Positions 6,299 to 56,764 of a stretch of 64,000 nt of DNA are shown here, piece by piece (the stretch's first letter is position 1; each line of letters opens with the position of its first letter). A program made the translations under genes and the position numbers. The DNA comes from Schizosaccharomyces osmophilus (Eukaryota; Ascomycota; Schizosaccharomycetes; Schizosaccharomycetales; Schizosaccharomycetaceae): positions 1,605,001-1,669,000 of the forward strand of contig NC_079240.1 of assembly GCF_027921745.1 (NCBI RefSeq). Direction: 5' to 3'. The notes under the pieces were generated by a model. That model was given only the letters and a program-made list of their open reading frames with translations, was not told the DNA's origin and searched no databases.

Positions 6299-9200
6299 CT
6301 AAGGAGAACGACCAACCACAGCGTACTTTGGATTTTTCACTGTCAAAATATTATCATCCTTTGAATGAACATGTATATCTGGTAGCAAAAGTCTTCCTGC
6401 TGTTAGGAATATAACTGTAAATGTTTCTCGTATTGTAGCTCCCATTCCTTTCAAACTTATTTTTTTCCGTATAGGACCAGCAAAAAGAATAGAATTTGTA
6501 AAAGTTGATACCTCGTACATCAGCTCAAACCTGTGCTTTTCACAATCGGCGTCAGTACTGCTTGGCACATGGGCAACCGTGAACTCAAGTTCTACCTTTG
6601 TGGGAATATTCAAGGATATGTTTGTTGGTAACTTCCAAACGCAATCAACCTGGACTATGTCTTTCTTATTTTGTATCGTGATAGGTCCCAACGTATGCAA
6701 ACAGTTCATCGGTGTTACGAAACATGCTGTTTCTTTCGTTCTGTGAGGCAATTGCAATGTCGATAAAACGTCCTTTACTGTCAATGGAGCTTTCAAACGC
6801 TTCAAAAGACAAGAGAACTCTTCCAAAAATATTTGGTTGCTTTTCAATAACAGCTTCGTTTGCTTAGTCTCAGGCATACTTATTAATTCAGGCAATGAAA
6901 TTTGGCCATTCGACCAAACTATGGTATCATTAGTTTTACGACAAATAGATTCAATCCAATTTGTTATAACGTTTATGTTCATTCGGCTTAGATATCGTTC
7001 ACACTCATTGTACAAATATTCGAAAAGAAGGTCAGTAATTCGCAAACAGTCCACAGTGACAATATGTTGTTTCCGTTTCCAGCCCTTCGAGGGGATCTTT
7101 TTGAAACAATCTATTATATCCAAAATTGTTAGTTTGTAAGGTATCGCGCAATCATCTGTTTCTTGACTATCCAGGTTCGTAGTTTTTATTCTCCAACCGA
7201 AAAATAAAATTGGTTCCTTGGGCTTTAGCCGAAGAAAAAAAGTTTGAAAATCTTGTTCATTCTCGTCAAGCTCACAGGAAACCTCTGCAAAATCTATTTT
7301 CTTTTTCAATACCGGCAGATAAAAATTAATAAGCTTTTCATCTTGAGTTTTGTAAGTTAATTTTATGTTCAACTGCAAGTTTAGGTTAGTAAAAGCAACC
7401 GATTGGTATGAACGTACATCATTATTTTCATCATCATCATTTCTTAAAGGAAAGTGCAAAACAACCTTTCCTAGTCGCTTAATATTTTCAAGATAAGCGA
7501 CCTCATTATGAATTGATAAAGTACAGTCAGAATATTCGTCAAGGAAGCATTGACTTGTTCTATTGTGCTCTTCTTTATTATTTGATTCAAAAGTTAAGCC
7601 CACTTTCTGATTTTCTTCAAATTGTTCTCCAAAGCATATCCGAAAAACAGATTGAAATCTATCATTCACATAACGTTGAGGTACAGATGCTTGAACTGTG
7701 GAAAGATGTCGTCCACTTAGGGAGGGTTGGAAAACTGATATTTCTTGTTGAGGATCAAATGTATCTTTCTTGAAGAGTACCGGCATCCCCTTTGGTTTTA
7801 TTATCATTTCACTTACGGAGTAACTCCCGGGAAGGATATCCTAAGTTGTTAGTATATGCATAAAAAGACTAAGATCGTACGTTACAGCTCAAAATAATCG
7901 TTGAATCTTTCTCAATGCTTTTTAAGCGGAATTTTAATTTGAACGGCCGGGAATTAGAAATCAAAGTACACATGACAGATTCCAGCATATCCAAACTAAA
8001 GATAGAAGAAGTGATTTTTACTTTAAGCTCTAGAGCCGTCTCCTCGGACACATTTGTTAAGTTCGATAAACTGACACAAAAGAAATCATCCAAAGTCAGA
8101 TCCGTGGTAGGAGGAATACGGTCAACTATTTCACCGGCTGCTTTAAAACAATCAGGATTTTTGTATTCTTTGAGCATGTTTACTAAGAATTCGATGGCCT
8201 CATGAGCTTTATCAACCTTCATTAGTATATCAATGTAAAATTGAATCCATTTCTCTTTGAAGGCATCGCTTTTCCAGAAAAGTGGTAGACTCGAGGTTTG
8301 TAGCATTTCGTAAGCCTTATCATAATTGCCAAGCATATAAAGTACTACAGCAGCTTCAGATGCGGTGTTGCTGAAGGACAAGCGATTTTTTCTCTGCCCA
8401 AAAATATGTAAGGCTTCTTCAGAAAGTTGCAAATATTTTTTTAAAAAAGATTCCAAACTGTCAATTTCTTCAATGCCTTGAAATTCTTTATGTATATCAT
8501 CATCGCGCTCTAACTTTGGTAGAGAACCTTCCTCATGCCAAAGTAGCAGCGTATTCTCGTGTAATAAGTTTTTCAAATAGGCCATTTTAAGAAGAATAGA
8601 ACGAGTAAATAGAGCTAATCTTGCATTAGAAGTAGGTACCTTGACGTCGTTATCCTTTGCATTTTGATTTATGAGACTCTTCAAATAATTGCAGGAGTCA
8701 TATTTAAAACGTAGAAAAAGTAGAGGGTTCTTATTCACAAACTGATCAAAAAAATGATAATTTAGGAATTGGAATGACTGTTGAAGTAGTGAATATGATC
8801 TGTCGTAATTTTTTATCTGCAAATTCAACTGAATCAGCTTTGAGAACAAGTAAAACCCAATGTGAAAAAAAGAGAACTTTTCAGAAGACAACAACTGCTG
8901 AAGATTTGCGGAAGTTGAATCAAAAAGCAAGGCCTTAGCATTCAATTCCAAAGGAGCCGGTACCACATCTGATCCTTCACCAAAGTATTTTACCATATCG
9001 GGTTTTCCATCTACAGTCCTAAGAATTTCATTGAAAGTTCCAAACATTTCGCCAAATTGCTCAACAGACTCGTTGTATAAAGATAATTCCAAATAACTAG
9101 CTCCTAATCGTTCTTTTTGTAAAAAGTAGACCAAAAAATCAGAAAAGATCGACGTATCCTGTAAGTTTATGAACTTGGCTTGTTCAGAAAGCTGAAGAAA

Positions 9201-9887
9201 CCGATAATTTAAGGCATCCAAAACCGACTTTTGTAAGCAACCTAAAAATGTATTCCAGCATTCCGCATCAGGAGTTCCAAATCGAACATAGTCCAGCCTT
9301 GTACACCGATTTGTATTAGCTGTATTAAAGTCATTCCTAAGGCGGTCAATAGTAGACTTTGCTACAAAGTAGGAGCTCGACCTTGAATGCGACCTGCCTA
9401 ATGGACCAGATGATCGTTTGACGCCCTGAGATCGTGCTACCAAGAGAATCATCCAGGATTGACTGTCATTTTGAGAGACCTTTTTCGACCAATCCAATGC
9501 TAAAGGACGGTGTTGCATTTTATACGTATCCGAATCCTAGTTACACGTTAGTAAGAATAGGCCCAGTGAGAAGAAAAGCAATACCTCTTCTGGCAAAATC
9601 AACATGTTCACCAGCGGAGTCTTTAATAATGTTGCATCTTTAGAATTATCGAGCGAAGTATAATGTTCCACCCATGGAACGAATTCAAGCTCCAAACTCG
9701 TGATAAAATGCTTTTTATACTGAAATGATTCGACCCACTGTAAATTTCGTAAAGGAATTTTACTTTTCACGTCCGTTGCTATTGTGGACCACACGCCAAA
9801 TGGATCATAGTCTTAAATCTATATGAGTAAACGCGTTCTACAATTATTTCTTCACTTACACTGAACTGAAGGCTTTGTTTTTACCAT
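6299..9887 (-). CDS. trs130: TRAPPII complex subunit Trs130 (TRAPPC10)
   Basis: Four exons on the minus strand: 9887-9860, 9811-9585, 9536-7881 and 7840-6299, giving 1150 aa. The first exon is only 28 nt (MVKTKPSVQ) and is joined by a 48-nt intron to YYDPFGVWS, which matches the conserved Y-x-DPF start of Trs130/TRAPPC10. Introns 2 and 3 each carry TACTAAC branch sites. The C-terminal third contains the beta-rich domain ending FLTAGRLLLPDI...NPKYAVVG, typical of the family. Trs130 is part of the TRAPPII tether and nucleotide exchange factor that activates Ypt31/Rab11 at the late Golgi. Position between rps28 and nup60 matches S. pombe. Sequence divergence is high, as usual in this family, but the conserved ends and length fit well. 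Confidence 0.9.
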
Positions 9888-21231: not shown

Positions 21232-21306
21232 CTCCCACTGCGAGACTCGAACTCGCAACCTTCCGGTTAAAAGCCGGACGCTCTAATCCGATTGAGCTAA
21301 ACGGGA
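21232..21306 (-). tRNA. tRNA-Lys, anticodon UUU
   Basis: Read on the minus strand, the gene begins TCCCGTT and ends AGTGGGA plus discriminator G, pairing into the acceptor stem. The D arm holds TAGCTCAATCGG, the A box. The anticodon loop CTTTTAA has anticodon TTT, flanked by a CCGG-rich stem. The T arm contains GAGTTCGAGTCTC, the B box. It has no intron and no encoded CCA, as usual for eukaryotes. It lies alone between a COPI gene and the Asf1 gene. Confidence 0.97.
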
Positions 21307-21638: not shown

Positions 21639-22376
21639 ATGTCGATCGTCAATATCCTAAGCGTGAATGTCTTGAACAATCCAGCCAAGTTTTCAGACTC
21701 GTACAAATTCGAAATCACTTTTGAGTGCTTAGAACCGTTGAAAAGCGACCTGGAATGGAAATTAACGTACGTGGGTAGTGCTACATCTCAAAGCTATGAT
21801 CAAATTTTGGACACGCTTTTGGTGGGACCTATTCCTATTGGAATCAACAAGTTTGTTTTTGAAGCAGATCCACCCAACATCGACTTGCTTCCAGAACTCA
21901 GCGATGTATTAGGAGTTACAGTGATTTTGCTGTCTTGTGCTTATGAGGAAAACGAATTTGTTCGCGTTGGTTATTATGTAAACAACGAAATGGAGGGAAT
22001 CAACTTGCAAGAAATGGAAGATACCGAAATCAAGAAAGTCAAGGTTGACATTTCAAAAGTATGGAGAAACATCCTAGCCGAGAAACCAAGGGTGACAAGG
22101 TTCAACATTCAGTGGGATAATCCTGACTTTGATGATGCACCGCCTGTTCATCCAGAAGCCGAGGAGGAGGAGGAAGAAGAAGAGCCAGAGGAGGCCGACG
22201 AGGAACTCGAAGAGGACGGGGAACCCGAGGAAGAAGACGAAGACGAGGAAGAAGATGCTGGTGATGAGGAGGAAGAAGAAGAAATTGATATCGAAGACGA
22301 AGAAGAACCTTCCACCTCCCAACCTCAAAATCCCAAAAAAGAATCTAAAGCTCCCGATTCCACCGAGAAACAGTAA
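21639..22376 (+). CDS. cia1: Histone H3-H4 chaperone Asf1 (Cia1)
   Basis: Single exon, 245 aa. The start was placed at [15 protein letters not shown], the universal Asf1 N-terminus. Residues 1-155 form the immunoglobulin-like Asf1 core ([21 protein letters not shown]-type strands, [36 protein letters not shown]). From about residue 165 the tail is extremely acidic, with long Glu/Asp runs, as in other yeast Asf1 proteins. Asf1 hands H3-H4 dimers to CAF-1 and HIRA during replication-coupled and replication-independent nucleosome assembly, and is essential in fission yeast. An MCB box close to the start codon would suit S-phase expression (inference). Confidence 0.97.
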
Positions 22377-24935: not shown

Positions 24936-27900
24936 TTACTTTGTTTCATCTGCTCCAAGACCTTGTTCGACCACGAGTTCATGATAACGACCGCCTTGGT
25001 TCACAAGTTCATTGTGTGTACCAGCTTCAGCAATTACGCCTCCATCAAATACAAAGATACAGTCAGCATTCTGAATTGTTGATAAGCGATGAGCAATTGC
25101 TACAGTGGTACGTCCTTCTGAAGCTTTGTTTAAAGCTTCTTGTACCACCTTTTCACTATGACTGTCCAAAGCACTGGTTGCCTCATCTAACAGTAAAATT
25201 TTAGGATTTCGAATCAAGGCACGAGCAATAGCGATTCTCTGTTTCTGTCCACCAGACAGAGATGACCCTTTCTGTCCCGAAAGCGTTTCATAACCGTTAG
25301 GCAAACCCATGATAAAATCATGAATATTAGCCATCTTACAGCATCCAATAAGTTCTTCTTCCTTTACTTTTCTTGAAGCACCAAGAAGGATATTCTCTCG
25401 AATACTTCCCTGGTATAAGGTTGGCTCTTGCGACACGAGAGCTATTTGCTTGCGGTAGTCATTAATGTTGTAGTCACGGATATCGACACCTCCAACTTTT
25501 ACAGATCCACTTTCGCAGTCATAAAAGCGTTCAATTAAGCCAATCGTTGTTGACTTACCGCATCCTGAAGCACCCACGAAAGCAACAAATTGACCAGGTT
25601 TAACCGTCAAGTTGAGACCACGAAGTACCTGGATGTGCTTTCTCGTAGGGTACCGGAATGTTACATCTTCAAATACAATGGAGGAATCTTCCAAAGATTC
25701 AATTTTGCGTCCTTCTTCAGACCAGGTATCAATTTTTGGTCTACTATCACACAAATGTTTAATTGATCCAGCGCTCGATTTTGCTTTCGTAAAGTCACCT
25801 GCAAAGCCCAAAAATTGTCCAGCTTGCTGGATACCGAAGACAATAGCTATAAAGCAAGTATAAAATTGGGCTAAATTATATTCACCTCTTCTCATCAGTG
25901 TAGCACCATACCAAAATGCCAGCGCATTGACCAAAAATGTAACTGCTTGCGACGCAGAAAAGAACAAACCAGATATTAGGGAAGATACAGCTGTTTCTCT
26001 ACCAGGTTGAACCAACGATGTACAGTAAATTTCATATACGTTTGATTCTCTGGTGAGACTGGCAACTGTTCTAATGGCTGATGTAGATTCGCAAGCATAT
26101 GCAGCAGACGATTTGTACGCAGTTGACAACTTACTCTGAATACGATTCAATGCAGCAACCCGATAATAACCAGCCATAATCATGACAGGGGAAGTAGCTA
26201 ATGTAACCAAAGCCAGCTTCCATCCAGTGGCCAGTGAAAGAATTGAAACAGAAATTATATTTGTAAAAATTTGCACAAATGTTCCAAGATAAAATCCTGA
26301 CAGGCCCTCTAGGTTCTGAATGGAGGTTGAAAGTGAAGTAGTCAAAGCACCTACTGTATTCTCAGCACGGTCAAAGAATTCGATATCCTGACGAAGGAGG
26401 GTACGGAAGAGATGCCAGCGAATACGTTGTTGAAGACACTCCAGCACATAAGACAAAGAATATTGACTTAAAGAATAACCGAATAATTCTGCAATAGCAA
26501 GAATCAACCAGTAAACTCCAAATACATTAATTTTATGAAAGTAATTCGGCGAGTTCAAATCTGTAAAGATATTCAAAAACCTGGCATACACCACTGCTTG
26601 TACGGGGTACGCGGCACCACAAACCATGGATGCTAAGATACCGATCATAAGGTACAAAAATTCTAAAGTACCTTCAACAAAAGAATGAATAAAAACCATT
26701 GCTCTCCAGGAGCTGATGTCAGTTGCGTTACTCTCAAGCTGCGAAGAAGAGTCAAGTTCTACACTCGGAGTTTCGTCATCCAGGGCGTCCATAGTTTTAT
26801 TTGGCAAATCCGGAACGGGATCGAATGGCAAGTGACCAAGTGGAGTATCGCGAAGCGAGATTGCGTCTTTTTCTTTTTCATAAAATGAATTGCGAGTCGA
26901 AGAGCTATCATCTTCACCTTGTGTAGTCGTATGAACAATTTCGTCAACTTCCTCTTCTCCCGGTTCAATGACAGCATCATCGTTATTCGTTTCAGCGAGT
27001 TGCTGCACTTCAACTAATTTGGCATAAGCTCCATTAAAAACCAATAAATCAGAGTGCTTTCCCTGTTCAACAATCTTTCCATTATTGACTACTACGATGT
27101 TATCGGCATTGCGGATTGTTGATAAACGATGAGCAATGACAATTGTTGTGCGAGATCTAGAAGCATTGTCTAGAGCCTTTTGAACAATAACTTCGCTTTT
27201 TGAATCTAAAGCACTTGTCGCTTCATCCAAAAGTAAAATTTTAGGATCACTAATAATAGCTCTGGCAATTGCAATTCTTTGCTTTTGTCCACCCGACATT
27301 AAAAAGCCGCGCTGGCCTACATTGGTATCAAATTGTTCGGTCAAAGTCATTATAAAATCATAAGCATTTGCGGTCTTGGCAGCATCGTAAACGCGCTCTC
27401 GCAGTTCATCCTCGGTAAGTGTTGATTGCATATCGTCAGTCAATCCATAAGCAATGTTATCAAAAACGGTAGCTCCAAACAGAACTGGCTCTTGCTGCAC
27501 TAGAGAGATATGAGCGCGTAAAGAAGCAACGTTTAAATCACGAAGATCTTCACCATCCACCATAACCTGTCCTGCAATAGGATCATAGAATCGCTCGACA
27601 AGACCTACTATAGTGGACTTTCCACTACCACTCGCACCGACAAGTGCAGTGATTCTACCAGCTGGGCACAGCAAAGAAAAGTTGTTTAAAACCACAACTT
27701 CAGGTCTGGTAGGGTATACGAACTTTATATTCTTCAATTCTATTTCTCCATTAAGATGTTGAATGGTTTTACCAGTGGGCGAGAAGGCGTCAATTGGACT
27801 CGCTCGGTCGATCGTGTCAAAAATCTTTTTGGCAGCTGACGAGCAATTTACAAACGCTTGCATTCTTGGAGCGATATTTGCCAAACTATAAGACGCAATT

Positions 27901-28970
27901 AGGACAGCAAAGAAACAATTAATCATTTTGTCGACATTTATTTCTCCAGAATGCAAAAGACGGCCACCTTCCCAGAAAGCAAGACCATAAGCACCATAAC
28001 CAACAAAAAACATCCATCCCATCATGATACCCTTAACCATGGATTTCTTGACGCCATTGACTTTGGCAGGGTTCAAAAACTTTGTATAAGAGTCGGATAG
28101 TAAGTTCTGGGTACCAAATGCAAATGTATTACGTATATTGGATAAAACCTCTTCAACAAAAGTACTAGAACTGGATAGCTGGGCAATCTGGGCTTTCGTA
28201 AACTGTGTTATAAATTTAACACCGCAAGTAATGCCACCAAGAATCGCCAACAGCATGGAACTGATAATAAGGGTGAACTTCCAATGCCGAATGAAAGCAA
28301 TGACGAATCCAGACAGAAACGTAGCAAGAGCAAAAAGCACCAAACCAACCTTTTCGCCCAAACCATCTTGAATGTAATCTGTGTCACTAGTAATACGCGT
28401 GGTTATTTCGCCTGCACCAAGACGATCAAAGTAACCGATGTTTTGACTGAGGACGGCATGCAGATATTGTTGGCGAATGCGACGAGAAATCCGTTCACCA
28501 GATATGATAAATGTGACTGTAAAGGTATAAGAACACCCAAAAACACCGATGGCAATATAAATAAAATACAGTACAAAATGGTTAACGTCGTGTTGGAAGG
28601 TCTCAGCACCACGACCGCTTGCAAGATCGGTAAAAGCTTTGGCTAATTTACCAGCGACAACGGACATCAAGGGCATACCAAGTCCAGCACCAATAGCGGT
28701 GATACAGCCAGCCAACTGAAGCAAATAATCCCATTTATCACCGCATGTAACAATTCGCATATACCCTGCTACTTTCGCCTTGGTATCATTCACCTGACGA
28801 TACAAGATCTCGCGCTCTTTTGGAGTATACTGTTGAAAAGGATCTTTTACAACATCGACAATTTTTTCTGAATTCTCAACGCTACTCGTGGAAAACTTAT
28901 CGACAAGTATGCTCTCATTATCTTTTTCAATATTAAATTTGTTCGACTCCGAATTTCTTGAAAACGACAT
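24936..28970 (-). CDS. pmd1: ABC multidrug exporter Pmd1 (leptomycin B efflux), full-size ABCB
   Basis: Single exon, 1344 aa, arranged TMD1-NBD1-TMD2-NBD2. NBD1 has Walker A GASGSGKST near residue 441 and signature LMSGGQKQR near 557; NBD2 has GASGCGKST near 1129 and SLSGGQKQR near 1235. Both NBDs keep LLLDEATSALDS and the switch AIAHRLSTI, so both ATP sites look competent. Each half has six predicted membrane spans. A Glu/Asp-rich linker (about 640-740) joins the halves. This is the P-glycoprotein type; S. pombe Pmd1 confers resistance to leptomycin B and other drugs. It lies beside rpl39 as in S. pombe. On its far side the order departs from S. pombe, where I recall a wtf element and ekc1. 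Confidence 0.96.
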   Translation of the reverse strand: MSFSRNSESNKFNIEKDNESILVDKFSTSSVENSEKIVDVVKDPFQQYTPKEREILYRQVNDTKAKVAGYMRIVTCGDKWDYLLQLAGCITAIGAGLGMPLMSVVAGKLAKAFTDLASGRGAETFQHDVNHFVLYFIYIAIGVFGCSYTFTVTFIISGERISRRIRQQYLHAVLSQNIGYFDRLGAGEITTRITSDTDYIQDGLGEKVGLVLFALATFLSGFVIAFIRHWKFTLIISSMLLAILGGITCGVKFITQFTKAQIAQLSSSSTFVEEVLSNIRNTFAFGTQNLLSDSYTKFLNPAKVNGVKKSMVKGIMMGWMFFVGYGAYGLAFWEGGRLLHSGEINVDKMINCFFAVLIASYSLANIAPRMQAFVNCSSAAKKIFDTIDRASPIDAFSPTGKTIQHLNGEIELKNIKFVYPTRPEVVVLNNFSLLCPAGRITALVGASGSGKSTIVGLVERFYDPIAGQVMVDGEDLRDLNVASLRAHISLVQQEPVLFGATVFDNIAYGLTDDMQSTLTEDELRERVYDAAKTANAYDFIMTLTEQFDTNVGQRGFLMSGGQKQRIAIARAIISDPKILLLDEATSALDSKSEVIVQKALDNASRSRTTIVIAHRLSTIRNADNIVVVNNGKIVEQGKHSDLLVFNGAYAKLVEVQQLAETNNDDAVIEPGEEEVDEIVHTTTQGEDDSSSTRNSFYEKEKDAISLRDTPLGHLPFDPVPDLPNKTMDALDDETPSVELDSSSQLESNATDISSWRAMVFIHSFVEGTLEFLYLMIGILASMVCGAAYPVQAVVYARFLNIFTDLNSPNYFHKINVFGVYWLILAIAELFGYSLSQYSLSYVLECLQQRIRWHLFRTLLRQDIEFFDRAENTVGALTTSLSTSIQNLEGLSGFYLGTFVQIFTNIISVSILSLATGWKLALVTLATSPVMIMAGYYRVAALNRIQSKLSTAYKSSAAYACESTSAIRTVASLTRESNVYEIYCTSLVQPGRETAVSSLISGLFFSASQAVTFLVNALAFWYGATLMRRGEYNLAQFYTCFIAIVFGIQQAGQFLGFAGDFTKAKSSAGSIKHLCDSRPKIDTWSEEGRKIESLEDSSIVFEDVTFRYPTRKHIQVLRGLNLTVKPGQFVAFVGASGCGKSTTIGLIERFYDCESGSVKVGGVDIRDYNINDYRKQIALVSQEPTLYQGSIRENILLGASRKVKEEELIGCCKMANIHDFIMGLPNGYETLSGQKGSSLSGGQKQRIAIARALIRNPKILLLDEATSALDSHSEKVVQEALNKASEGRTTVAIAHRLSTIQNADCIFVFDGGVIAEAGTHNELVNQGGRYHELVVEQGLGADETK

Positions 28971-30881
28971 CGTGAAAAATTATGAAATTAAGTAAGAAAA
29001 TCCGCCAAAAACAAAAGAAGGGAGGATGAGAAGAGCCAAGAAAGAGAAAACCTAAGAACCCAATCGAATCTATATAGGGAATAAATCGGTAAAATAAATA
29101 AATGAATCAAGGTCCAATACCCAAAGAAATTACCAGTTGAGAGATTAAAAAAAGCGTGTCAATGGAACTTAGAAGATGCAACAATGACAAAATCGTAAAC
29201 AAGGCCAACGATTCTTTCAATTGCTGGAATTGCTTCCAGATATTTTATAAAAGAACGTGTTTAAAAAGAACCAAGAAATGGTAAAAAAACGTATGTAAAA
29301 GGCGAAATCAATCGGCGCGTAGATTTATATGCAAAATCCCGAATCCACGACCGCCATGGAGTTAAGTATGTACAAGAGTATAACTAGTAGAGCTAAAACT
29401 TTGAGACTCCCAGTCCAATCTCCTCGGAGGTTACCAAAATCAGATTGTGGCTAAATTAAACCCAAAGAGAGGAATAAGCTATATCTTAACGATTTGTTAC
29501 GACGAATAGTAAATAAAGCGAATGTAAACAAATAAAAAAAAGCGTAAATAAAGTGAAATGTCAAAAAATGGACATGTAGTTGTTGAATCTCACATTTTTT
29601 TTTCACGGGCGTTCTACAAGGTAGGGTGGCGGTTTTCGAAAATCAGGGAATAGAAACATATCATACAAAAAAATTCCTACAGTTGAGAAGTATGTTCGCG
29701 GAGTAATGTTAGTCTTAGTTTACAGGCATCCAAGGAATTATATTTTTATGGATTGGTTCTCCACTCTAGAAGTAATCATCAACCCTTCAGTTAGGATCAG
29801 TCGTACTTTTAAGGTCTTGAGTAGTCACAAACCGGTTGAGCATTATTCAGACTGAGCAGTGGTTCACCCCTCACTAGGGAATTGGTAGAAAACGGTCGAG
29901 TGCATCTTTGCTTGCTTTGTATACTCTGAAGCAAGCCAATCGGATTCCCGATCAAACATGAAAACTTAACCTCTACGGCAGTTCACAAACATGTGGATGA
30001 CTTGCTGCTTTCAACGAACAACTTGCCATTTATTTTTTTCTTGATCCGATCTGGGCCTGTTCTTTCCTTCGCTTTCGCAAATTGATGTTCTCAAGTTAAG
30101 GCCATCGAACGCTAATAACGCTTTAGCACCGAGGCAGTTCGGCCGAAATTCCAAGTCAACCTGTATGCCCATGCATTCTCTCTAAACCTGGAAAATAATT
30201 TCTTAGGAAAACTGCCGGGCATCAGCTTTATATAAGAACCGACGTACGATTCGGTAATTCATTTCAGATAAGAGACATACATCGAGGGCAAGAAACGAAA
30301 ACATTTTTACCTCGTTTCCCTTTATCTTGATTTCCATCTTTCCAATGTCATGGTCAACCGAAGACATACTACTAATTCATAGTGGGAGGAACTTCGCCAA
30401 AAGAATGACTTTAAAAAAGGACCTGGAGAAAAACGAAAAAAGAATGAGAAAAAAACAAACAAACAAATCATTTCGTAAATAGCTATAGTTTAAATCCTTT
30501 GGTTTCAATGCGCATTCGTGCATGTCGTCGAAATCCACATAAAGAATTAGGGGTTTTGAGGGAAAATCAATTTATCATTGAGGTTTATTTGCCAATGAAG
30601 AAAACAATCCTTTGTATGTATTTTTTTTGTCGTTGTGAGGGTAAACAAACAGTTTGCTTCATCGAAAATTTTTCTTCGTACGAAGGCGGAAACACACGCA
30701 TGGCACGGACGAGGACTGATATGAATAATTATATATATGTAGTGCTTTCTTTCATAATTTTGAATCAAGACAGCTTTTAAAACGTTATTGATTTACGGTT
30801 ACTCCCTTCTGACTAGAAAGCAAATCTCGTAAACATTAAAGAACCCGTAACTTTACGTTGACCTTGCGATACCTTTTTGAA
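28971..30881. other. 1.9-kb intergenic interval between pmd1 and the A-T-R reductase
   Basis: The longest gap in the window. Both flanking genes are transcribed away from it, so it must hold two promoters. I see a 10-bp perfect palindrome TTCGGCCGAA (30138-30147) and a TATATAA element (30229-30235) ahead of the reductase, about 650 bases from its ATG. A 91-codon ATG frame at 30508-30780 shows no family features. No wtf gene, LTR or tRNA is recognisable, although gene order breaks here relative to S. pombe. Confidence 0.55.
30138..30235 (+). promoter_or_regulatory. Candidate control region of the A-T-R reductase: CGG/CCG palindrome and TATA box
   Basis: TTCGGCCGAA at 30138-30147 is a self-complementary 10-mer with CGG and CCG half-sites, the kind bound by fungal Zn2Cys6 factors. 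TATATAA follows at 30229-30235. Together they would place transcription start near 30260 and leave a leader of about 600 nt, which could also be a separate upstream RNA. The assignment is inference from motif and spacing. Confidence 0.35.
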
Positions 30882-33794
30882 ATGACTAAAACCATTGTAC
30901 CCACCCCCGTGTCCGTATTATTGGAAAAGGCAAACTCCAAGCCTGACGAAACCTTCTTGGATTTCTATAACGAAAATGGGATCCAGAAATCCTATTCCCA
31001 TCTAGAAATCCTTCAGCGAACCAACACGATTGCTAGATTCTACCAGCAAAACGTGCCTTCGGGAGCTACCGTCGGTGTTTTTATGAGACAGGAAATGGAT
31101 CTTGTGTGTTCCATTCTCGCCTTGTGGGCAACCGGACACACAGGTGTCATATTCAATGAAGACTGGGACTCAGATATTGCAGCTATTATTAGCGAACGCT
31201 TGCAGGTATCTTTCTTGGTTTTTAGCGATCTTACCGAAAAGTATCATCTTCGCGGTGTAAAATCACTACATTTAACCACTCTTCAAACGGACCCCAATGC
31301 ACCTTGTATTCAGACAGGATATGAGCCAGAAATCGCATTGATTAACCACAGCAGTGGATCTACCGGTATCCCCAAATCAATTCCCTATCGCATGGAAAAG
31401 TACGTACCTGCAGCTGACTGGGGTATATCATCGTTGGACCATCATCTTAAAACCGCAATAGTTATGGCTCCTAACTTTGCTCTTACTACATTGGTTTGGA
31501 TGACTGCTTTATTAAATCCAGGTGGTAGTATCATGTGTCCCTCTATGCTTACACGTCCACCCGTTCCAGTTAGCTCTAAAGCCGAGCAACTAGCGTGGAA
31601 CCTGCACTATGCCTTAAAATACGGATGTGAACGTCTCTGTATCTTGCCTAAGCTGCTCTTGTTGATGTTACAAACCACTGTAAAAGAAAACGAATCATTC
31701 CCTAGTTGTAAGAAGGTTTTGGTTGCCGGTGAAATGATCCCTCCAAACTTGCCTGAATCCTGTCAGCGTGCTTTGCCAAATGCTAAATTCGGTGCGGCGT
31801 ATGGTTCTACAGAAACTGGATTTAGTGGATTTTATGCCGAACTTAAAGATAGCAATTTAACATACATTCCCGGTTTAACCATCAAAGATTTAATGCTTTT
31901 GAACGAAGACATGAAGCCCATTCCTCGCGAAGTTGGAAACAAAGGATTTGTTTGCGTCATCACTGATGCACAATCTGAACCTTATGTAGGAGAAGACGAG
32001 GAAACGCAAAGTGCGAATCGAGAGACATACATTACAATTAACAACCAGCCCGCCATTCGTTTTGCAGACCTCGCGACTTGGGAACAAAAGGATGGAAATT
32101 GGGGAATTTCAGTGAAAGGACGTTTGGGCCGTATTGTAAAGCGGAATGGTGTCTTCTACGATTTAAATCATCTGGATAAAATCGCCAACTCCTTGGATGC
32201 TTTCAAGGAAGCCTTCTCTTTCCTTGTCAATAACCGATTTGTTTTATGCTATATCCCCAAAGAAGCCACTCTTACTTCTGACGAAGCACTCAACGTCTTG
32301 AATAAAGCATTGAAGTCGAGTGTTTGGTTTTCTCATTGTATCCCCATTAAGACATTATTGTTTAATGCTTCAGGTAAAGTTGACTTGAAGGCATTACAAT
32401 CTTATGTGCAAGATCGTATGTTTGAAGAGGACAGCAAATTACCCAGCCTTACGGATCATTTTGCTATAGAAATCAGCAAAATCTCCGCCAGAGTTTTGGG
32501 TAACAAATCATTGGAAGGAAAGGAAGTTCTGTTTCAAGCACATGGATTAGACTCCATCAAGGCAGTGCAATTCTCATCCTTGCTGAAGAAAGAACTGAAC
32601 TGTGAAATCTCCGTAACCGTTTTATTGCATCCTGAGTGCTCCCCCAACAGTTTGGCTGCTGCTGTGAAAGAGGGAGGTACCAATAAGTTGTCTGTTTCTG
32701 TCAACGAAGTAGAAGCCGATGCTATTAAATTAGCAGGCGAACTAGGCGGCGTCAAGCCATTGGCACCTATAAAGGATTCTTGGGTGTTGTTGACCGGCGC
32801 TACTGGATTCCTTGGAAAGAGATTGCTGACGCACTTTTTGAATGGAGGAGAAAAGGTCATTTGCCTTATTCGTGGATTGAACGACGCAGATGCCGAGAAG
32901 AGAATGTATGGAATGTGCCCAAATTTGCAAAAGTATGCAAATTCTTCTTTGATTGTATGGGCTTCCGATTTAAGCGATGACAACCTGTCCTTGTCGTCTG
33001 AAAAATGGGAATTTTTGGAGAAGCATGTTTCCAAGATCGTCCACAATGGAGCAATGGTACATTGGACCAAGACCTATTATGACTTGTGGAAACCCAATGT
33101 GTTGAGTACAAAGAAGTTGCTTGATTTGAGCATGGTGGGCCCCAAGAAACTCATCTTTGTGTCAGGAGGTGCACAACAAGAGTTGAGTATGGTAGACCGT
33201 GCAGCTAAAGGGCAGTCTATGGGCTACACGCTTTCAAAATTTGCTGCTGAAACGGTTTGTTACAAAGCCAAAGAAAATGGAAACCCTGAAATCTATACAA
33301 TTCTTCCAGGATTCATTTTGGCGAACGATGGAGAAATCCTTGCACGTGACTTTTTCTGGAGATTTGTACAAACATGTGTACGAATGAAGAAATGGCCTAC
33401 TCGGGCTGATGGTGGTTCTTTGCCCTTGCGTATTTCGTCGACGGAAGAAATTGCTCGTTGCATGCATGAAGGAATAGAGCATCAACAATACTTCCCTGAA
33501 GATAAGGACGGACGCGTTATGAGCTATGATGGAATTGACGGAAATGTAATGATTGCAGCATGCGAAGAGAAACGAGGAATCAAGTTGCAAAAGGTCCCAT
33601 TGTCTGTTTGGTTGCAGCAAGTGGACAAGGACTTGGAAGAAGAGAAGGAATATCACCCATTGTTTGCATTGAGACATTTGACAGAGGGAGCCGTCCAAAT
33701 AGGCTTACTGGACGATGGCGCGAGCGGCATCAAACAGAAGCATTTCTTGAGCGTTGATGCTTTCAAGAATGGACTGGAACAGCTTGAAGTATAA
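30882..33794 (+). CDS. NRPS-like carboxylic acid reductase, adenylation-thiolation-reductase (A-T-R)
   Basis: Single exon, 970 aa, from the first ATG (MTKTIVPTPVS); a few in-frame codons upstream have no ATG. An acyl-adenylating domain spans about 1-510, with A3 core HSSGSTGIPK (about 156-165) and A5-like YGSTETGF. A phosphopantetheine carrier domain lies at about 525-600, with the attachment serine in HGLDSIKA (about 557). A thioester reductase follows: NAD(P)H loop GATGFLG (about 636) and catalytic YTLSK (about 780). Such enzymes activate an acid, load it and release it as aldehyde or alcohol. It is not Lys1/Lys2: fission yeast Lys1 is about 1400 aa with an extra N-terminal half. All catalytic motifs are present. 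The substrate is unknown, and I know of no S. pombe orthologue. Confidence 0.9.
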   Translation: MTKTIVPTPVSVLLEKANSKPDETFLDFYNENGIQKSYSHLEILQRTNTIARFYQQNVPSGATVGVFMRQEMDLVCSILALWATGHTGVIFNEDWDSDIAAIISERLQVSFLVFSDLTEKYHLRGVKSLHLTTLQTDPNAPCIQTGYEPEIALINHSSGSTGIPKSIPYRMEKYVPAADWGISSLDHHLKTAIVMAPNFALTTLVWMTALLNPGGSIMCPSMLTRPPVPVSSKAEQLAWNLHYALKYGCERLCILPKLLLLMLQTTVKENESFPSCKKVLVAGEMIPPNLPESCQRALPNAKFGAAYGSTETGFSGFYAELKDSNLTYIPGLTIKDLMLLNEDMKPIPREVGNKGFVCVITDAQSEPYVGEDEETQSANRETYITINNQPAIRFADLATWEQKDGNWGISVKGRLGRIVKRNGVFYDLNHLDKIANSLDAFKEAFSFLVNNRFVLCYIPKEATLTSDEALNVLNKALKSSVWFSHCIPIKTLLFNASGKVDLKALQSYVQDRMFEEDSKLPSLTDHFAIEISKISARVLGNKSLEGKEVLFQAHGLDSIKAVQFSSLLKKELNCEISVTVLLHPECSPNSLAAAVKEGGTNKLSVSVNEVEADAIKLAGELGGVKPLAPIKDSWVLLTGATGFLGKRLLTHFLNGGEKVICLIRGLNDADAEKRMYGMCPNLQKYANSSLIVWASDLSDDNLSLSSEKWEFLEKHVSKIVHNGAMVHWTKTYYDLWKPNVLSTKKLLDLSMVGPKKLIFVSGGAQQELSMVDRAAKGQSMGYTLSKFAAETVCYKAKENGNPEIYTILPGFILANDGEILARDFFWRFVQTCVRMKKWPTRADGGSLPLRISSTEEIARCMHEGIEHQQYFPEDKDGRVMSYDGIDGNVMIAACEEKRGIKLQKVPLSVWLQQVDKDLEEEKEYHPLFALRHLTEGAVQIGLLDDGASGIKQKHFLSVDAFKNGLEQLEV

Positions 33795-34134: not shown

Positions 34135-34944
34135 ATGTCGAGCAGCCGAAGAAATTATGAAAGAGAGGAAAACGATTTGTCGTATCGCTCCCAACGCGTA
34201 GAAAAGGAGGGTTTACCGCGAACTACGTATAGGGATGCAAGAGAAAGTGGAAGAGGTAGACAACGAGAGGGAGGACGATTTCAACGAGAAAGAAGTCCAG
34301 AGAGAAGAAGCGACAGGTATGCGCGAACGCGGAATTTCAATCGAACGAGTGAGGATGAGTCTGTGCGATCTCAGGACCGGGAGCGAAACCGAAACCGAAA
34401 TCGAGATTGGGATCGAGAGGGTGAGCGTGGGCCTGAACGCGACCGGATGGTTCGACGAGACCGGTATGACCGTTACGACCGACACGACCGTGAGGAAAAA
34501 CGGAGAGAAGATGTAGGAGAAAGGCCTAGAGGGGGTGGTCGAAGGGGAGAGCAAGAGCAAAAGCAAAAACAAGAACGGACGGAGCGACAAAATCGACGTG
34601 ATTTCACGACTAGCAGCTACCGACAAGAGCGCGTGCAACCGGTATCATCACCTCCAAGGAGAGATGGTCAACAACAAAAAAGACAAAGTGAAGGAGAGGA
34701 TAACTCATTAGAAGCAGTGCCTTCTACCTCCTCGGCAAATGGAAATAGTCAAGAGGAAATTTCCGTGCAAGAAGAATTGGACCCGGTGGCCGACATGCAA
34801 AGTATGATGGGATTTTCGGGATTTGGAACGACGACGGGAAAAAAGCATGGAGACGTTGGAGACGTCTTTAAGCAAAGAAAGGCAAGATATCGTCAATACA
34901 TGAACCGTCCTGGTGGATTCAATCGTCCTTTAGAACGCGATTGA
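34135..34944 (+). CDS. U4/U6.U5 tri-snRNP 27K-like protein (SNRNP27)
   Basis: Single exon, 269 aa. The first 200 residues are a low-complexity Arg/Asp/Glu/Gln-rich stretch (RD/RE and RS dipeptides such as RERSPERRSD). The last 60 residues match the conserved SNRNP27 domain: MQSMMGFSGFGTT, then GKKHGDVGDV and RQYMNRPGGFNRPL. In metazoans and most fungi this protein contacts U6 in the pre-B spliceosome and influences 5' splice-site choice. I recall an S. pombe gene of this type adjacent to adh1 (SPCC162.01c), consistent with the order here. The RD-rich part differs in length between species and carries no fold. Confidence 0.9.
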   Translation: MSSSRRNYEREENDLSYRSQRVEKEGLPRTTYRDARESGRGRQREGGRFQRERSPERRSDRYARTRNFNRTSEDESVRSQDRERNRNRNRDWDREGERGPERDRMVRRDRYDRYDRHDREEKRREDVGERPRGGGRRGEQEQKQKQERTERQNRRDFTTSSYRQERVQPVSSPPRRDGQQQKRQSEGEDNSLEAVPSTSSANGNSQEEISVQEELDPVADMQSMMGFSGFGTTTGKKHGDVGDVFKQRKARYRQYMNRPGGFNRPLERD

Positions 34945-36054: not shown

Positions 36055-37104
36055 ATGACTTTTCCCGATAAGCAAACAGCAGCCGTTTTCCACAAGCACG
36101 GAGGACCCGAGAACGTGAAGTTCGAAGAAGTCCCTGTTGGTGAGCCCGGTGAAGATCAAGTCTTGGTTAACATCAAGTACACTGGTGTCTGCCACACTGA
36201 CTTGCACGCTCTTCAAGGTGACTGGCCTCTCGATGTCAAGCTCCCCTTGATCGGTGGTCACGAAGGTGCTGGTGTCGTCGTTAAGGTTGGCCGTGGTGTC
36301 AACCGTCTTAAGATCGGTGACCGTGTCGGTGTTAAGTGGATGAACTCCTCTTGCGGTAACTGCGAATACTGCATGAAGGGTGATGAGACCATCTGCCCTC
36401 AAATTCAACTCTCTGGTTATACTGTCGACGGTACCTTCCAACACTATGCCATCGCCAATGCCACTCACGCTACCCTCATCCCCGAGTCCGTTCCCCTCGA
36501 GGTTGCTGCCCCCGTCATGTGCGCTGGTATCACCGTCTACCGTGCCTTGAAGGAGTCCGGTGTCGGACCCGGTCAATGGGTCTGCATTCCCGGTGCCGGT
36601 GGTGGTCTTGGTCACTTGGCCGTTCAATACGCCAAGGCTATGGCCATGCGTGTCGTTGCCATTGACTCTGGTGAAGACAAGAAAGAACTTGTTTCCAGCT
36701 TCAACGCTGACGTTTTCGTCGACTTCAAGACTGACGACGTTGTCGAAGTCGTCAAGGAGAAGACTGGCGGTGGTGCTCACGGTACTTTGGTCTTGTCTAC
36801 CTCCCCCAAGTCTTACGAGCAAGCTGCTTCTTTTGCTCGTCCCGGCTCTACCATGATCACTGTTGCCATGCCTGCCGGTGCTAAGCTCGGTGCTGACATC
36901 TTCTGGTTGACCGTCAAGCAACTCAAGGTTTGCGGTTCTCACGTCGGTAGCCGTCTTGACTCTGTTGAGGCTATGGACTACTTGGCTCGTGGCCTCGTCA
37001 AGCCTTTCTACAAGGTCCAACCCTTCTCTACTCTCCCTGAAGTCTACAACCTTATGCACGAGGGTAAGATTGCTGGCCGTATCGTCTTGGATCTCTCCAA
37101 GTAA
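36055..37104 (+). CDS. adh1: Alcohol dehydrogenase Adh1 (zinc-dependent, fermentative)
   Basis: Single exon, 349 aa, full family length. Catalytic zinc ligands are in GVCHTDLH (Cys46), GGHEGAG (His69) and the Cys of APVMCAGITVY; the four structural-zinc cysteines are in CGNCEYCMKGDETIC. The NAD-binding loop is GAGGGLG. The enzyme reduces acetaldehyde to ethanol, the terminal step of fermentation. Codon use is the most biased in the window (GTC, GCC, GGT, CTC, AAG), as expected for an abundant protein. Because of that bias the opposite strand is open over the whole gene (36046-37113), which I treat as a by-product. In S. pombe a zinc-responsive antisense RNA represses adh1. Confidence 0.98.
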   Translation: MTFPDKQTAAVFHKHGGPENVKFEEVPVGEPGEDQVLVNIKYTGVCHTDLHALQGDWPLDVKLPLIGGHEGAGVVVKVGRGVNRLKIGDRVGVKWMNSSCGNCEYCMKGDETICPQIQLSGYTVDGTFQHYAIANATHATLIPESVPLEVAAPVMCAGITVYRALKESGVGPGQWVCIPGAGGGLGHLAVQYAKAMAMRVVAIDSGEDKKELVSSFNADVFVDFKTDDVVEVVKEKTGGGAHGTLVLSTSPKSYEQAASFARPGSTMITVAMPAGAKLGADIFWLTVKQLKVCGSHVGSRLDSVEAMDYLARGLVKPFYKVQPFSTLPEVYNLMHEGKIAGRIVLDLSK

Positions 37105-42113: not shown

Positions 42114-43295
42114 ATGACTTCTCTCGCGTTTTCTTACAGGTATATACTCCTCTGTTTTTTTATCCTTTGTACTCCTATAATTTACAAGAGTTTCAGCAAA
42201 TCCCAAGTTCACCTTTCCGTTAATTATGAGCCTTTACATTTTACCAAGCACGATATTCCAAGTGGTGATAATGGTACGGACATCCAACAGCCGGCCCTCA
42301 TGAAAGCTACCTTGTTTATGCTTTGTCGCAATAGAGATCTTGCCGCCGCACTTAGTTCCATCCAGAATGTTGAAGATCGTTTTAATAACCGATACCATTA
42401 TCCATGGACATTTATGAATGATGCACCATTTTCGGAGGAATTCATCAATGCTACCTCCACGATGGCCAGCAGCGATACTACTTACGTCCAACTTCAACAA
42501 CATGAATGGGGTTTGCCCAAAAATCTCAACATGAATCGTGCATTAGAGACAATCCGTGACATGATGAGAAGACACATTATTTATGGCTTTTCGTTGAGTT
42601 ATCGAATTATGTGTCGGTTCAATTCTGGCTTCTTCTACCGAAACTCTGCTCTTAAAAATTACGACTATTATTGGCGTGTGGAACCCGGTGTTATTTATTC
42701 TTGTGATATTCCATAGTAAGCTGTTCAAGTATCGTGTAATTGCTAACTTTGCAGTGATCCATTCCGTAGGCTTCGCGACGAAAAGAAAGCTTATGGATTT
42801 GTGATTTCTTTACCTGAATACCCAGAAACTATTCCTACCCTTTGGAATACTACCAGAGACTTTATCAAAAAGAGTCCTCATTATCTTGCTCCAGATAGTT
42901 CTTTAGACTTTATTACAGATGATAACAAGGGCTTAGACGGTGAATATAACAATTGCCATTTTTGGAGCAATTTCGAAATTGCTGACTTGAACTTTTTTAG
43001 AAGCGATGCCTACAACGATTACTTTGAATACTTGGATCAAAGGTTTGGCTTCTTCTACGAGCGCTGGGGTGATGCTCCTATACATACCCTTGCTGCGTCT
43101 CTATTTCTCAACAAATCACAACTTCACTATTTTGAAGATTTCGGATACTACCATTTGCCTTGGAATCATTGCCCTTCAGATTATAAACTCCATGTTAAGG
43201 GCCGATGCATTTGCGATCCTGCCGATACTGTTGAGATTCAGTATGGATTTTGTTACCCCAGATGGCTTCACAATATGCGAAATGTTAATACATAG
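42114..43295 (+). CDS. Golgi alpha-1,2-mannosyltransferase, Ktr/Kre2 (Omh) family, GT15
   Basis: Two exons, 42114-42715 and 42755-43295, give 380 aa; the 39-nt intron has GCTAAC and splits the Tyr codon of CDIP-YDPFR. Residues 10-27 form a type II signal anchor (YILLCFFILCTPIIY). The lumenal domain carries ATLFMLCRNRDL, YPWTFMNDAPFS, SYRIMCRFNSGFFY, YDYYWRVEPGV and the catalytic YNNCHFWSNFEI with its glutamate. These enzymes add alpha-1,2-mannose to O- and N-glycans in the Golgi using GDP-mannose. S. pombe has several (omh1-6 and gmh types); an omh gene follows gtr2 in S. pombe, but which number I cannot say. Confidence 0.94.
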
Positions 43296-52134: not shown

Positions 52135-54874
52135 ATGAATAACACCGTGCCAGTAAATGAAGAAATATCGAGACCTTTGGAAGAATCATTGGTAATATGC
52201 AAGCAGTCAAGCCGACTGATGCAAAAGAATCTGCAGACTGGAAAGTTAATGGATGCCTTTCGAAACTGCAGTATGAGTCTGGTAGAAATGAGGAACAATG
52301 CTCTTTCTCCGAAACAATATTACGAACTGTATATGTTTACTACAGAAACCCTACGGCGGCTTGGTGAAGCGTTGCTGGAGACACACCTGAACGGTACGCA
52401 TCATTTGATGGATCTTTACGAACTTGTACAATATGCGGGAAGTGTTCTTCCTCGTCTGTATCTAATGATAACAGTAGGAAGCGCATATCTGGAGACTCCC
52501 AAAGCTCTCGTTAAAGAAATCATGAACGACTTAATCGACATGTGTGCCGGTGTGCAGCATCCTTTACGTGGATTATTTCTTAGACATTACTTATTGACAC
52601 AAACAAGAAAAGGACTCACACAGGATCCCGACCATGATGATGCTGACCCGAAGACGGAGACTCTTATGGACTCTGTGAAATTCTTGCTCTTAAATTTCAC
52701 GGAAATGAACAAATTGTGGGTTAGGATTCAACATTTAGGGCCTATGAAAGATTACATGAGGCGAACTCAAGAGCGGAATGAGCTTAAGGTTCTTGTCGGT
52801 CTTAATCTCGTCCGACTGTCGCAACTCAATTTCGATTTGGACACGTACAAAAATGAGATCCTTCCAGCTATTGTTGAACAGGTAATTGAGTGTAGAGATC
52901 CCTTAGCCCAAGAATACTTGTCCGAGGTTATTTGCCAAGTTTTTCCAGACGAAATGCACCTGGAAACCTTGGACATATACTTTAGCACTATCATGAAGTT
53001 AAATAGAAGCGTAAACATTACGCCTTTGGTTATTTCTATGCTGAATAGACTTACCGCTTATGTTCAGCGCGAATGCGAAGTTGAGTCTTCTGATAGAGAA
53101 GGTTCAGTAAACCAAACAATGCAAAACTTGTCCCTTGAGGATCAATCTTCTGATCCCGAAAACAAAATATGCCCGGGTGATAGGGTTATTTCCCCAAAGT
53201 TAGCTATCCAGGAAGTACTATGGACTTATATTGTGGATGTTCTCAACGCCCGTAATGGTATTGCTTTGGGCGATATTGTACAGATACTTTCAAGTATCCT
53301 AAATTTTTTCTTACAATGTTACCCTTACCAAACTCAATATGCCGATAGAGTATTTCAGGTTATAAACGAACGTATTCTACAACAGCCATCTTTGCAAACA
53401 GAACTGAAGGAGCGGTCACTTCAAAAGTCGCTATTTTCAATACTGGTGCTCCCAATTGTCTCATTCCCTTCATTTTCATACTGCTTGAATTTACCAAGCT
53501 TTCTCCCTGTCTTCAAAGCGCAGCCAATTAATATTCGATATGACATAGCGAAAATGATATTGGAGAAGGTTATTGAGAAAGAGCAGATGATCAGCGATTT
53601 GAAGGATGTTCAAGAGCTTTTTGGGGTTATTTCAGTGATAATAAAAAATAACGGCAATGATACTATAGAAGACTTGAAAACGATAGCTATATTGGTTCAT
53701 TACCTACATAATGAAGACCCTCAAATTCAAATTGAGGTATGGGTTTAAAAAACATTTATTATACTAACAATATAGATTCTGCGTTGTTTGAAGGATAACT
53801 TTGTACAAGCTGGTGAGAATGTAAAGTACTTACTCCCTGTGGTGGTAAACAAATGTATCTTTCTGGCCCGTGAATTTCGATTATTTAAGGTAAAACAAAG
53901 AAAGCAAAAGCTGATGGCTAATAAACAATAGTGTGTTGACTGGGCTGAAAAGGTTCGTATCTTATGGGATTTTGTTAATGCTTGTATTGTCATTCTTTAT
54001 AACCACGGCGATTCCGCCGAGCTATCCCTTGTTCTATACCTATTTGCCGCAGAAATGGCCGATATTGAAAGTTATCCAGACTTTGCTTATGAGTTCTTCA
54101 CCCAAGCTTTTACCATATATGAGGAGTCTGCTTTGGATTCGCGATTACAATACCAGCAGCTATTAATGATTACAGGAAAGCTTCAAAAGACCAGAAACTT
54201 TTCTGTTGATGACTATGATACATTGATTACAAAATGTACACTTTACGCATCGAAATTGCTTAAGAAACCAGATCAATGCAGGTATGTTTTTATATCCAAT
54301 GTCTGTTGATTAACATATACAGAGGAATCCTTCATGCAAGTCATTTATGGTGGCAGAACGAAACGACCGAAGAAACAGTGGTATGTATAGAACGACTTTA
54401 TTTAGTATATTTCTCTTTTGTCGATTCTATTTATTAACAAGTAAAAGATATTTAGGGATTCCAAACGTGTTTTAGAATGCCTTCAAAAGAGTCTGAAGAT
54501 TGCAGATTCCTGCATGGATCAGGTAAGGCTCGATGACAAATGAAACGTTTACTCTAACAAAGAATTAGATTACCAGCCTAAAATTGTTTATCAACATACT
54601 AGAACAGTATTTTTACTACTATGATCAGCGTTGCGATTCTATTCTAGCCAAGCATATTGGTGGTTTAATTGATTTGACCGAGCAAAATATGCGATCATTG
54701 CTTGCGTCTTCCCCTAATGATCTTATTTTAAATGATCCCAATGCTTATGCTAGTTCCATTTGGGAAACGGCGGGTGGTTCCTCAGTTGATAACCTGAGAA
54801 ATCATTTGGAGAAAACAACTGATCTAGCTGAAAAACGGTCAGAAGATGAACGATGGGCGAGCATTTTTCAATAG
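52135..54874 (+). CDS. vps35: Retromer cargo-selection subunit Vps35
   Basis: Six exons: 52135-53736, 53776-53889, 53932-54281, 54323-54380, 54448-54522 and 54569-54874, giving 834 aa. The N-terminal Vps26-binding region holds the family motif LRGLFLRHYLL (PLRGLFLRxYL). The C-terminal alpha-solenoid that binds Vps29 contains LLKKPDQCR and RDSKRVLECLQKSLKIADSCMD. In intron 4 (54381-54447) the 3' site is the internal AAAAG, not the later TTTAG: only that choice keeps phase and restores IFRDSKRV. Retromer recycles receptors such as Vps10 from endosomes to the Golgi. Introns are 39-67 nt. Confidence 0.95.
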
Positions 54875-55288: not shown

Positions 55289-56764
55289 ATGATGAATGAT
55301 AGTCCATTGACTGAAGATGAAATCATAGAACAAAGACGAAAAAGACGATTGGAGATTTCGAAAAAACATCAAGCTGAAGGTTCCAAGCCTACACCGTCGC
55401 AAGCTTCGACAACGGATCATCTTGCTTCAAAAATAACAAAATCGATCTCTAAAACAGATGCGGCAAAGCTAGAAAATGAACAGCCTTCATTGGATAACCA
55501 GCACTCTAATGGGGAGAACGACTCGATTTTAGCAAAACCAGATTCAAACGAGCCATTTTCTGAAAAGGCCTCCATGGAAGACGATGAGGATGAGGAAGAC
55601 GACATGTTTGCAGACAGTCCACTTCCCACTCATAAGAAACGGAAAACGGACAAAAAACCGTCTACCGTTAAAAGGAGTCTTGCTGGAATGCAAGACACCT
55701 GGGATGACGTTGAAGGATATTACAAGGTAATACTTATGGAAGAACTTGATTCACGGTATCTCATCCAGTCCAATCTTGGCAAAGGTATGTTTTCTAGCGT
55801 GGTCAATGTAATGGACCAAATGACAAAAGCGTCGTTTGCAATCAAAATTATTAGAAACAACGAAGTAATGTACAAGGCTGGCATGAAAGAGGTGTCTATT
55901 TTGGAACGTCTTCAGGCTGCAGATCCTGAAGGGAGGAGGCACATAGTTCGGTACGATCGGTATTTTATGCACAAAAATCATTTATGTATGGTATTTGAAA
56001 TGCTTAGTTTAAATCTTCGTGATATTTTGAAAAAATTTGGGAGAAATGTCGGATTAAACATTAAGGCGATTCAAGTGTATGCTTATCAAATGTTCACAGC
56101 CCTTCATCTCTTGGAGGAATGTAACGTTATCCATGCTGACATCAAGCCGGATAATATGCTTGTGAATGAAAAGAGAAACATTTTGAAAATATGCGATCTT
56201 GGATCTGCTTCTGATGCTGCTGAAAACGAGATAACACCATACCTTGTGAGTCGCTTCTACCGAGCGCCAGAAATCAGTAAGTCACTTACTTTGTTTTAAG
56301 CTAATATCTTAGTTCTGGGATACCCTTATTCATGCCCAATTGATACATGGAGTGTTGGATGCTCTTTATTTGAGTTGTATGCTGGACAAATTCTATTTCC
56401 TGGACGAAGCAATAATCAAATGCTTAGGCTTATGATGGAATGCAAGGGAAAGTTTAGCCATAAGATGCTCAAACGTAGTCAATTTACTTTTGATAATTTC
56501 GACGAAAATTATAATTTCATTAATAAGGAACTTGATCCTATAAGTGGGCAAGAAACTCAGAGAATCTTAAATTTTAGTAAACCTGTTCGAGACATAAAGT
56601 TTCGATTAATGGATGTGCTTGCTTCCACAAATGAGGAAGTTGTGATTCAGCAAGACTTTATACTTTTGTTAGAACAATGCTTGGAACTCAATCCAGAAAA
56701 GAGAATTACGCCCAAAGAAGCATTAAAGCATCCTTTTTTTAAAAACAGTCGCCCTTTTCGGTAG
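55289..56764 (+). CDS. prp4: Spliceosomal serine/threonine kinase Prp4 (PRPF4B)
   Basis: Two exons, 55289-56276 and 56313-56764, give 479 aa; the 36-nt intron lies within RAPEI-ILGYPY of the activation segment. Residues 1-135 are charged and disordered. The kinase domain has the glycine loop LGKGMFSSV (about 162-170), VAIK-type AIKII, catalytic loop HADIKPDN (about 281), in which Arg of HRD is Ala as in PRP4 kinases, and DLGSA in place of DFG. The region after it (RFYRAPEI) is dual-specificity-like. Prp4 phosphorylates Prp1 and other tri-snRNP proteins before spliceosome activation and is essential in fission yeast. A second in-frame ATG follows immediately. Confidence 0.97.

Follow-up and report, generated by a model that had tools for sequence, protein, structure and literature searches.

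Gene and neighbourhood

The window, a stretch of 64,000 nucleotides of the Schizosaccharomyces osmophilus contig NC_079240.1, contains a gene for an A-T-R carboxylate reductase at positions 30882-33794 of the plus strand. It is a single open reading frame (ORF) that runs from an ATG to a stop codon without an internal stop and encodes a protein of 970 aa. A preliminary description, made from the letters of the sequence, had named it an intact, intronless A-T-R gene; the uninterrupted frame and the presence of all three domains confirm this, and each of the five motifs quoted there was found in the translation. The region 30882-33794 is a real, intact gene of a known enzyme class.

An orthologue of SNRNP27 (34135-34944; Pfam SNRNP27, 2.1e-21) follows after 340 bp as the next gene downstream, with the same orientation, and is used here as synteny anchor. 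A second anchor is the gene of a zinc alcohol dehydrogenase (ADH) of the yeast ADH1/ADH3 type, recognised by its family match (36055-37104, plus strand), whose counterpart in S. pombe we take to be adh1 (SPCC13B11.01). With a GC content at third codon positions (GC3) of 0.583 this gene lies above the other 19 ORFs examined (maximum 0.451), as might be expected of a highly expressed gene. On the other side, the divergently oriented neighbour encodes an ABC transporter, presumably pmd1, in which Pfam finds two membrane regions and two ATPase regions (24936-28970, minus strand). The 1.9-kb stretch between the transporter and the A-T-R gene (28971-30881) is free of Rfam matches at gathering thresholds. 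Judged by S. pombe gene names, the break in gene order relative to that species would lie here, upstream of the A-T-R gene, and not downstream. A role for the adjoining transporter was not adopted, as adjacency alone links the two genes. Neither was a common pathway of the A-T-R protein and the alcohol dehydrogenase, since the latter is of the ADH1/ADH3 type and its position fits a conserved gene order.

The 970-aa ORF has a GC3 of 0.434; of the remaining 19 ORFs examined in the window, 18 range from 0.322 to 0.451. Its synonymous-codon fit was the ninth lowest among 20 window ORFs. Both measures agree with the host-like codon use noted before, and the composition of 30882-33794 gives no sign of recent arrival.

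Domains and catalytic residues

Three domains follow one another in the protein in the order adenylation, carrier and thioester reductase, which is the general layout of A-T-R carboxylate reductases. The adenylation (A) domain covers about residues 15-509 (30924-32408) and carries the core motifs A3 (SGSTGIPK) and A5 (YGSTE) as well as Asp396 (A7), Arg414 (A8) and Lys499 (A10). The carrier domain (residues 536-594, 32487-32663) has its phosphopantetheine serine, Ser558, in the motif HGLDSIKA, and the reductase (R) domain (residues 635-935, 32784-33686) contains TGATGFLG and the triad Ser761-Tyr782-Lys786. The corresponding Pfam models AMP-binding (residues 15-362, 1.2e-24), PP-binding (residues 536-594, 3.8e-06) and NAD_binding_4 (residues 637-842, 1e-33) all matched above their curated cut-offs. 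Taken alone, the R domain scored 205 bits against TIGR01746, the model for thioester reductases, slightly below the cut-off of 213. PF07993 matched in all 14 named control genomes and is therefore unspecific by itself, so that the assignment as an A-T-R protein stands on the three domains jointly.

Relatives for a comparison of residues were collected from bacteria. A scan of bacterial genome contigs with the single protein found no relative. With a four-sequence alignment as query at least 591 stretches of these contigs matched; 315 were confirmed among the matches listed, of which the best 80 were kept (best segments 21-35% identical). The plasmid search returned 110 records; in two, a single place spanned 80% or more of the query (23.7% and 20.3% identity). 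IMG/VR yielded no match to the single protein and three loci with the alignment; the best of the three, L085, is situated within an NRPS ORF of 2565 aa, and a link to viruses led nowhere. Altogether 93 loci were read (80 from genome contigs, being the best of the matches listed, 4 from plasmids, 3 from IMG/VR and 6 pieces of plasmid records). Usable A-T-R segments were obtained from 54, of which 49 entered the alignment A2 and 45 the alignment A3. These segments, drawn from the best matches listed, show 18-23% identity to the target in A2 and 17-22% in A3.

Nine catalytic positions are invariant in the 45 bacterial segments of A3, and all nine are kept in the target, the segments being just 17-22% identical to it and not independent of one another. 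Five belong to adenylation (Glu311, Asp396, Arg414, Lys420 and Lys499), one to the carrier (Ser558) and three to reduction (Ser761, Tyr782 and Lys786). For the fungal carboxylate reductase (CAR) NcCAR, the carrier Ser and the reductase Tyr and Lys are reported to be needed for activity (PMC5826065); the equivalents here are Ser558, Tyr782 and Lys786.

Two further positions of A3 are Asp in 45 of 45 bacterial segments and differ in the target. One is the column of GrsA Asp235, occupied by Ala200, although the A4 stretch is aligned with less certainty, a phmmer alignment with LgrA and the four-sequence alignment placing the gaps differently from A3. The other is the hinge Asp of A8, which is replaced by Gly416. 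In addition, A7 reads IRFADL in place of YRTGDL. The glycine at the hinge and the altered A7 mean that adenylation could be weak. Together with the low scores of the A domain they might even suggest an inactive or moonlighting relic past adenylating, which we consider very unlikely in view of the intact frame of 970 aa and the nine catalytic positions kept across all three domains.

The AlphaFold model of the protein has a mean pLDDT of 78.5 and a pTM of 0.59. In the model a helix begins at residue 200, directly after Phe199, which fits a replacement of Phe-Asp by Phe199-Ala200. NRPS modules, adenylation domains and DltA make up the best 50 Foldseek rows listed (E-values from 5.2e-35 to 6.6e-28). 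The best solved matches include EntF, LgrA and DltA and are driven by the adenylation half.

Among known systems, bacterial NRPS terminal A-T-R modules are the closest among the matches listed and share its three domains and all nine catalytic positions with the target. They differ from it by their 17-23% identity over A-T-R and by having Asp, in 45 of 45 cases, both in the Asp235 column and at the A8 hinge. A recent bacterial origin was rejected, no donor being present among the matches listed from genome contigs and plasmids.

Subfamily and predicted reaction

Since the target shares the A-T-R order with the alpha-aminoadipate reductases Lys1 and Lys2, a truncated or diverged paralogue of these enzymes had to be considered. 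The reductase half indeed has their model, TIGR03443, as second-best family (98 bits), which marks the R domains as related. In contrast, the whole protein scored 104 bits against a curated cut-off of 1030, and with the A domain alone TIGR03443 was not matched at E<=0.001 among the 20 families listed. The target is also shorter than Lys2 and is devoid of an N-terminal extension. Moreover, the column of the Asp that would anchor an amino group holds an Ala. A Lys1/Lys2 paralogue is accordingly highly improbable, and the distinction from Lys1/Lys2 made at the outset is borne out by the profile.

For the A domain, TIGR01733 (amino acid adenylation) was the best general model, matching weakly with 85 of 317 bits. 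The ten code positions of GrsA, aligned to the target, give the pocket A L L I L A A F S K, with the numbering of the positions and the roles of the residues taken from GrsA. In amino acid-activating A domains the Asp in the column of GrsA 235 is the residue holding the alpha-amino group. The target has Ala200 there, in a stretch whose alignment differs between runs, and the pocket is without any acidic anchor, from which we infer that the acid is hydrophobic and bears no alpha-amino group. The predicted substrates would thus be hydrophobic acids of the aryl, aryl-aliphatic or fatty type and not amino acids, bearing in mind that the codes of ordinary NRPSs are a poor guide to the substrates of divergent A domains.

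An amino-acid or betaine reductase of the fungal clade I or ATRR type is, on these grounds, quite unlikely. TIGR01733 as the best general model speaks for it, and a betaine reductase could presumably do without the Asp; the weakness of that match and the missing anchor speak against an amino-acid reductase. NPS10 and the A-T-R-R enzymes, which include the glycine betaine reductase type, carry an extra C-terminal reductase or dehydrogenase domain according to PMC2823734 and PMC8403587. Unlike in these enzymes, no Pfam domain was found in the target after NAD_binding_4, which also speaks against this reading.

A published comparison sorts 84 fungal CARs into seven clades (PMC9605436). The characterised enzymes NcCAR, AtCAR, SbCAR and TvCAR share with the target the A-T-R order, the carrier Ser and the reductase Tyr and Lys. 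The motifs given in PMC5826065 set them apart: there, the A domain of fungal CARs needs the His of a PxxH motif and the Glu of a GEK motif, and the place expected for the A10 Lys is taken by a hydroxylic residue. In the target, the A4 sequence corresponding to PxxH of types II-IV is Pro197-Asn198-Phe199-Ala200, with Phe at the aligned position; the A8 region reads RNGVFYD instead of containing the GEK Glu, as judged by eye against the published motif; and the A10 Lys is present as Lys499. At the positions compared with these published motifs, the A domain differs from the characterised fungal CAR type as far as the alignment indicates. In its architecture the target is thus an A-T-R protein; its A domain is NRPS-style, and the protein falls outside every subfamily compared.

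From the catalytic residues kept, the following mechanism can be proposed. A phosphopantetheinyl transferase would load Ser558. The A domain would then use ATP to convert a carboxylic acid into its acyl-adenylate, and the acyl group would move to the carrier arm, bound there as a thioester. With NADPH as predicted cofactor, the R domain would reduce this thioester and release an aldehyde, which may be reduced further by a house-keeping dehydrogenase. The predicted activity of the gene product is therewith probably the conversion of a carboxylic acid into an aldehyde.

The probable S. pombe counterpart

According to PMC4889648, SNRNP27 is the human homologue of S. pombe SPCC162.01c. With SNRNP27 being the next-door neighbour of the A-T-R gene, the systematic numbering leads to SPCC162.02c as the syntenic gene in S. 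pombe. Its position beside SNRNP27 and its strand correspond to those found here, the adjacency in S. pombe being read from the systematic numbers and the strand from the suffix 'c'. The PomBase product of SPCC162.02c is presumably 'AMP-binding dehydrogenase (predicted)', which is a fitting description of an A-T-R protein, so that the presumed domain content agrees, too. The order A-T-R, SNRNP27, ADH in the window is consistent with a conserved order of all three genes, adh1 being the presumed counterpart of the last. It is therefore very likely that S. pombe possesses an orthologue of 30882-33794, and the absence of a counterpart there, stated in the preliminary description, is probably an error.

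The survey of Bushley & Turgeon 2010 (PMC2823734) is contrary to this: in its Table 1, S. pombe and S. japonicus have two NRPS-type genes each, an alpha-aminoadipate reductase (AAR) and a siderophore synthetase. Either a divergent A domain may have escaped the survey, or the product name given above for SPCC162.02c may be incorrect. A full-text literature search of main texts found none naming SPCC162.02c. The main texts of the fission-yeast genome papers PMC10085805, PMC8537764 and PMC7144085 contain neither 'reductase' nor 'aminoadipate', and 'SPCC162' does not occur in PMC10085805 and PMC9562144.

If the count of two is correct, the gene would be missing in S. pombe, having either been kept in the lineage of S. 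osmophilus and lost there or been transferred from another fungus. Exchange within the genus has been suggested by the authors of PMC7144085 for S. octosporus-like genes in the S. pombe strain Wilmar-P. The A-T-R gene of the window also adjoins the presumed break in gene order. These points are opposed by the downstream neighbour, an orthologue of SPCC162.01c on the same strand, and by the presumed annotation of SPCC162.02c. Transfer is further disfavoured by the host-like codon use and GC3, and no close bacterial source was seen among the matches listed from the collections searched. We regard absence from S. pombe as unlikely, and arrival by transfer, one of the two routes proposed at first, finds no support in either composition or close bacterial relatives within that same scope.

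We consider it likely, then, that the gene is a resident one in fission yeasts and encodes an intact A-T-R carboxylate reductase of a single module, with SPCC162.02c as its most likely, predicted orthologue. Of the original interpretation, the intact stand-alone A-T-R protein, different from Lys1/Lys2 by profile, has held, but the supposed absence from S. pombe probably has not. Most likely the enzyme is at home in fission yeasts, where it has gone unstudied, and is not a novelty of one lineage. A wider proposal, which we put forward tentatively and with slightly more doubt than trust, is that it represents a third, overlooked NRPS-type enzyme common to fission yeasts and a separate subfamily of A-T-R reductases, whose A domain lacks the amino-anchoring and the hinge Asp; it would have kept its place next to SNRNP27 ever since S. 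pombe diverged and would make an aldehyde or alcohol in primary metabolism. Should this be true, S. pombe would gain an uncounted carboxylate reductase in comparison with the two NRPS-type enzymes of the survey cited (PMC2823734). This would define a small, tractable gap in the metabolism of a model organism, and the reductase would be one not covered by the fungal CAR types characterised so far. Orthology with SPCC162.02c would also open the enzyme to direct study in S. pombe.

Several other features of the window were recorded. An Asf1-family protein (21639-22376) is identical to S. pombe Cia1 at 154 of 161 aligned positions, with 7 differing. Close to it, a tRNA-Lys gene (TTT; 21232-21306, minus strand) is the one feature of the window reported by ARAGORN and the one reported by Rfam at gathering thresholds. 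Partial matches to Pfam models were obtained for Mannosyltransferase (42114-42716), Vps35 (52135-53748) and a protein kinase (55289-56299), all on the plus strand, as expected of genes split by introns. A TRAPPC10-type protein is distributed over two adjacent ORFs of 502 and 549 aa on the minus strand (6299-9518), the 61 bp between them probably reflecting an intron.
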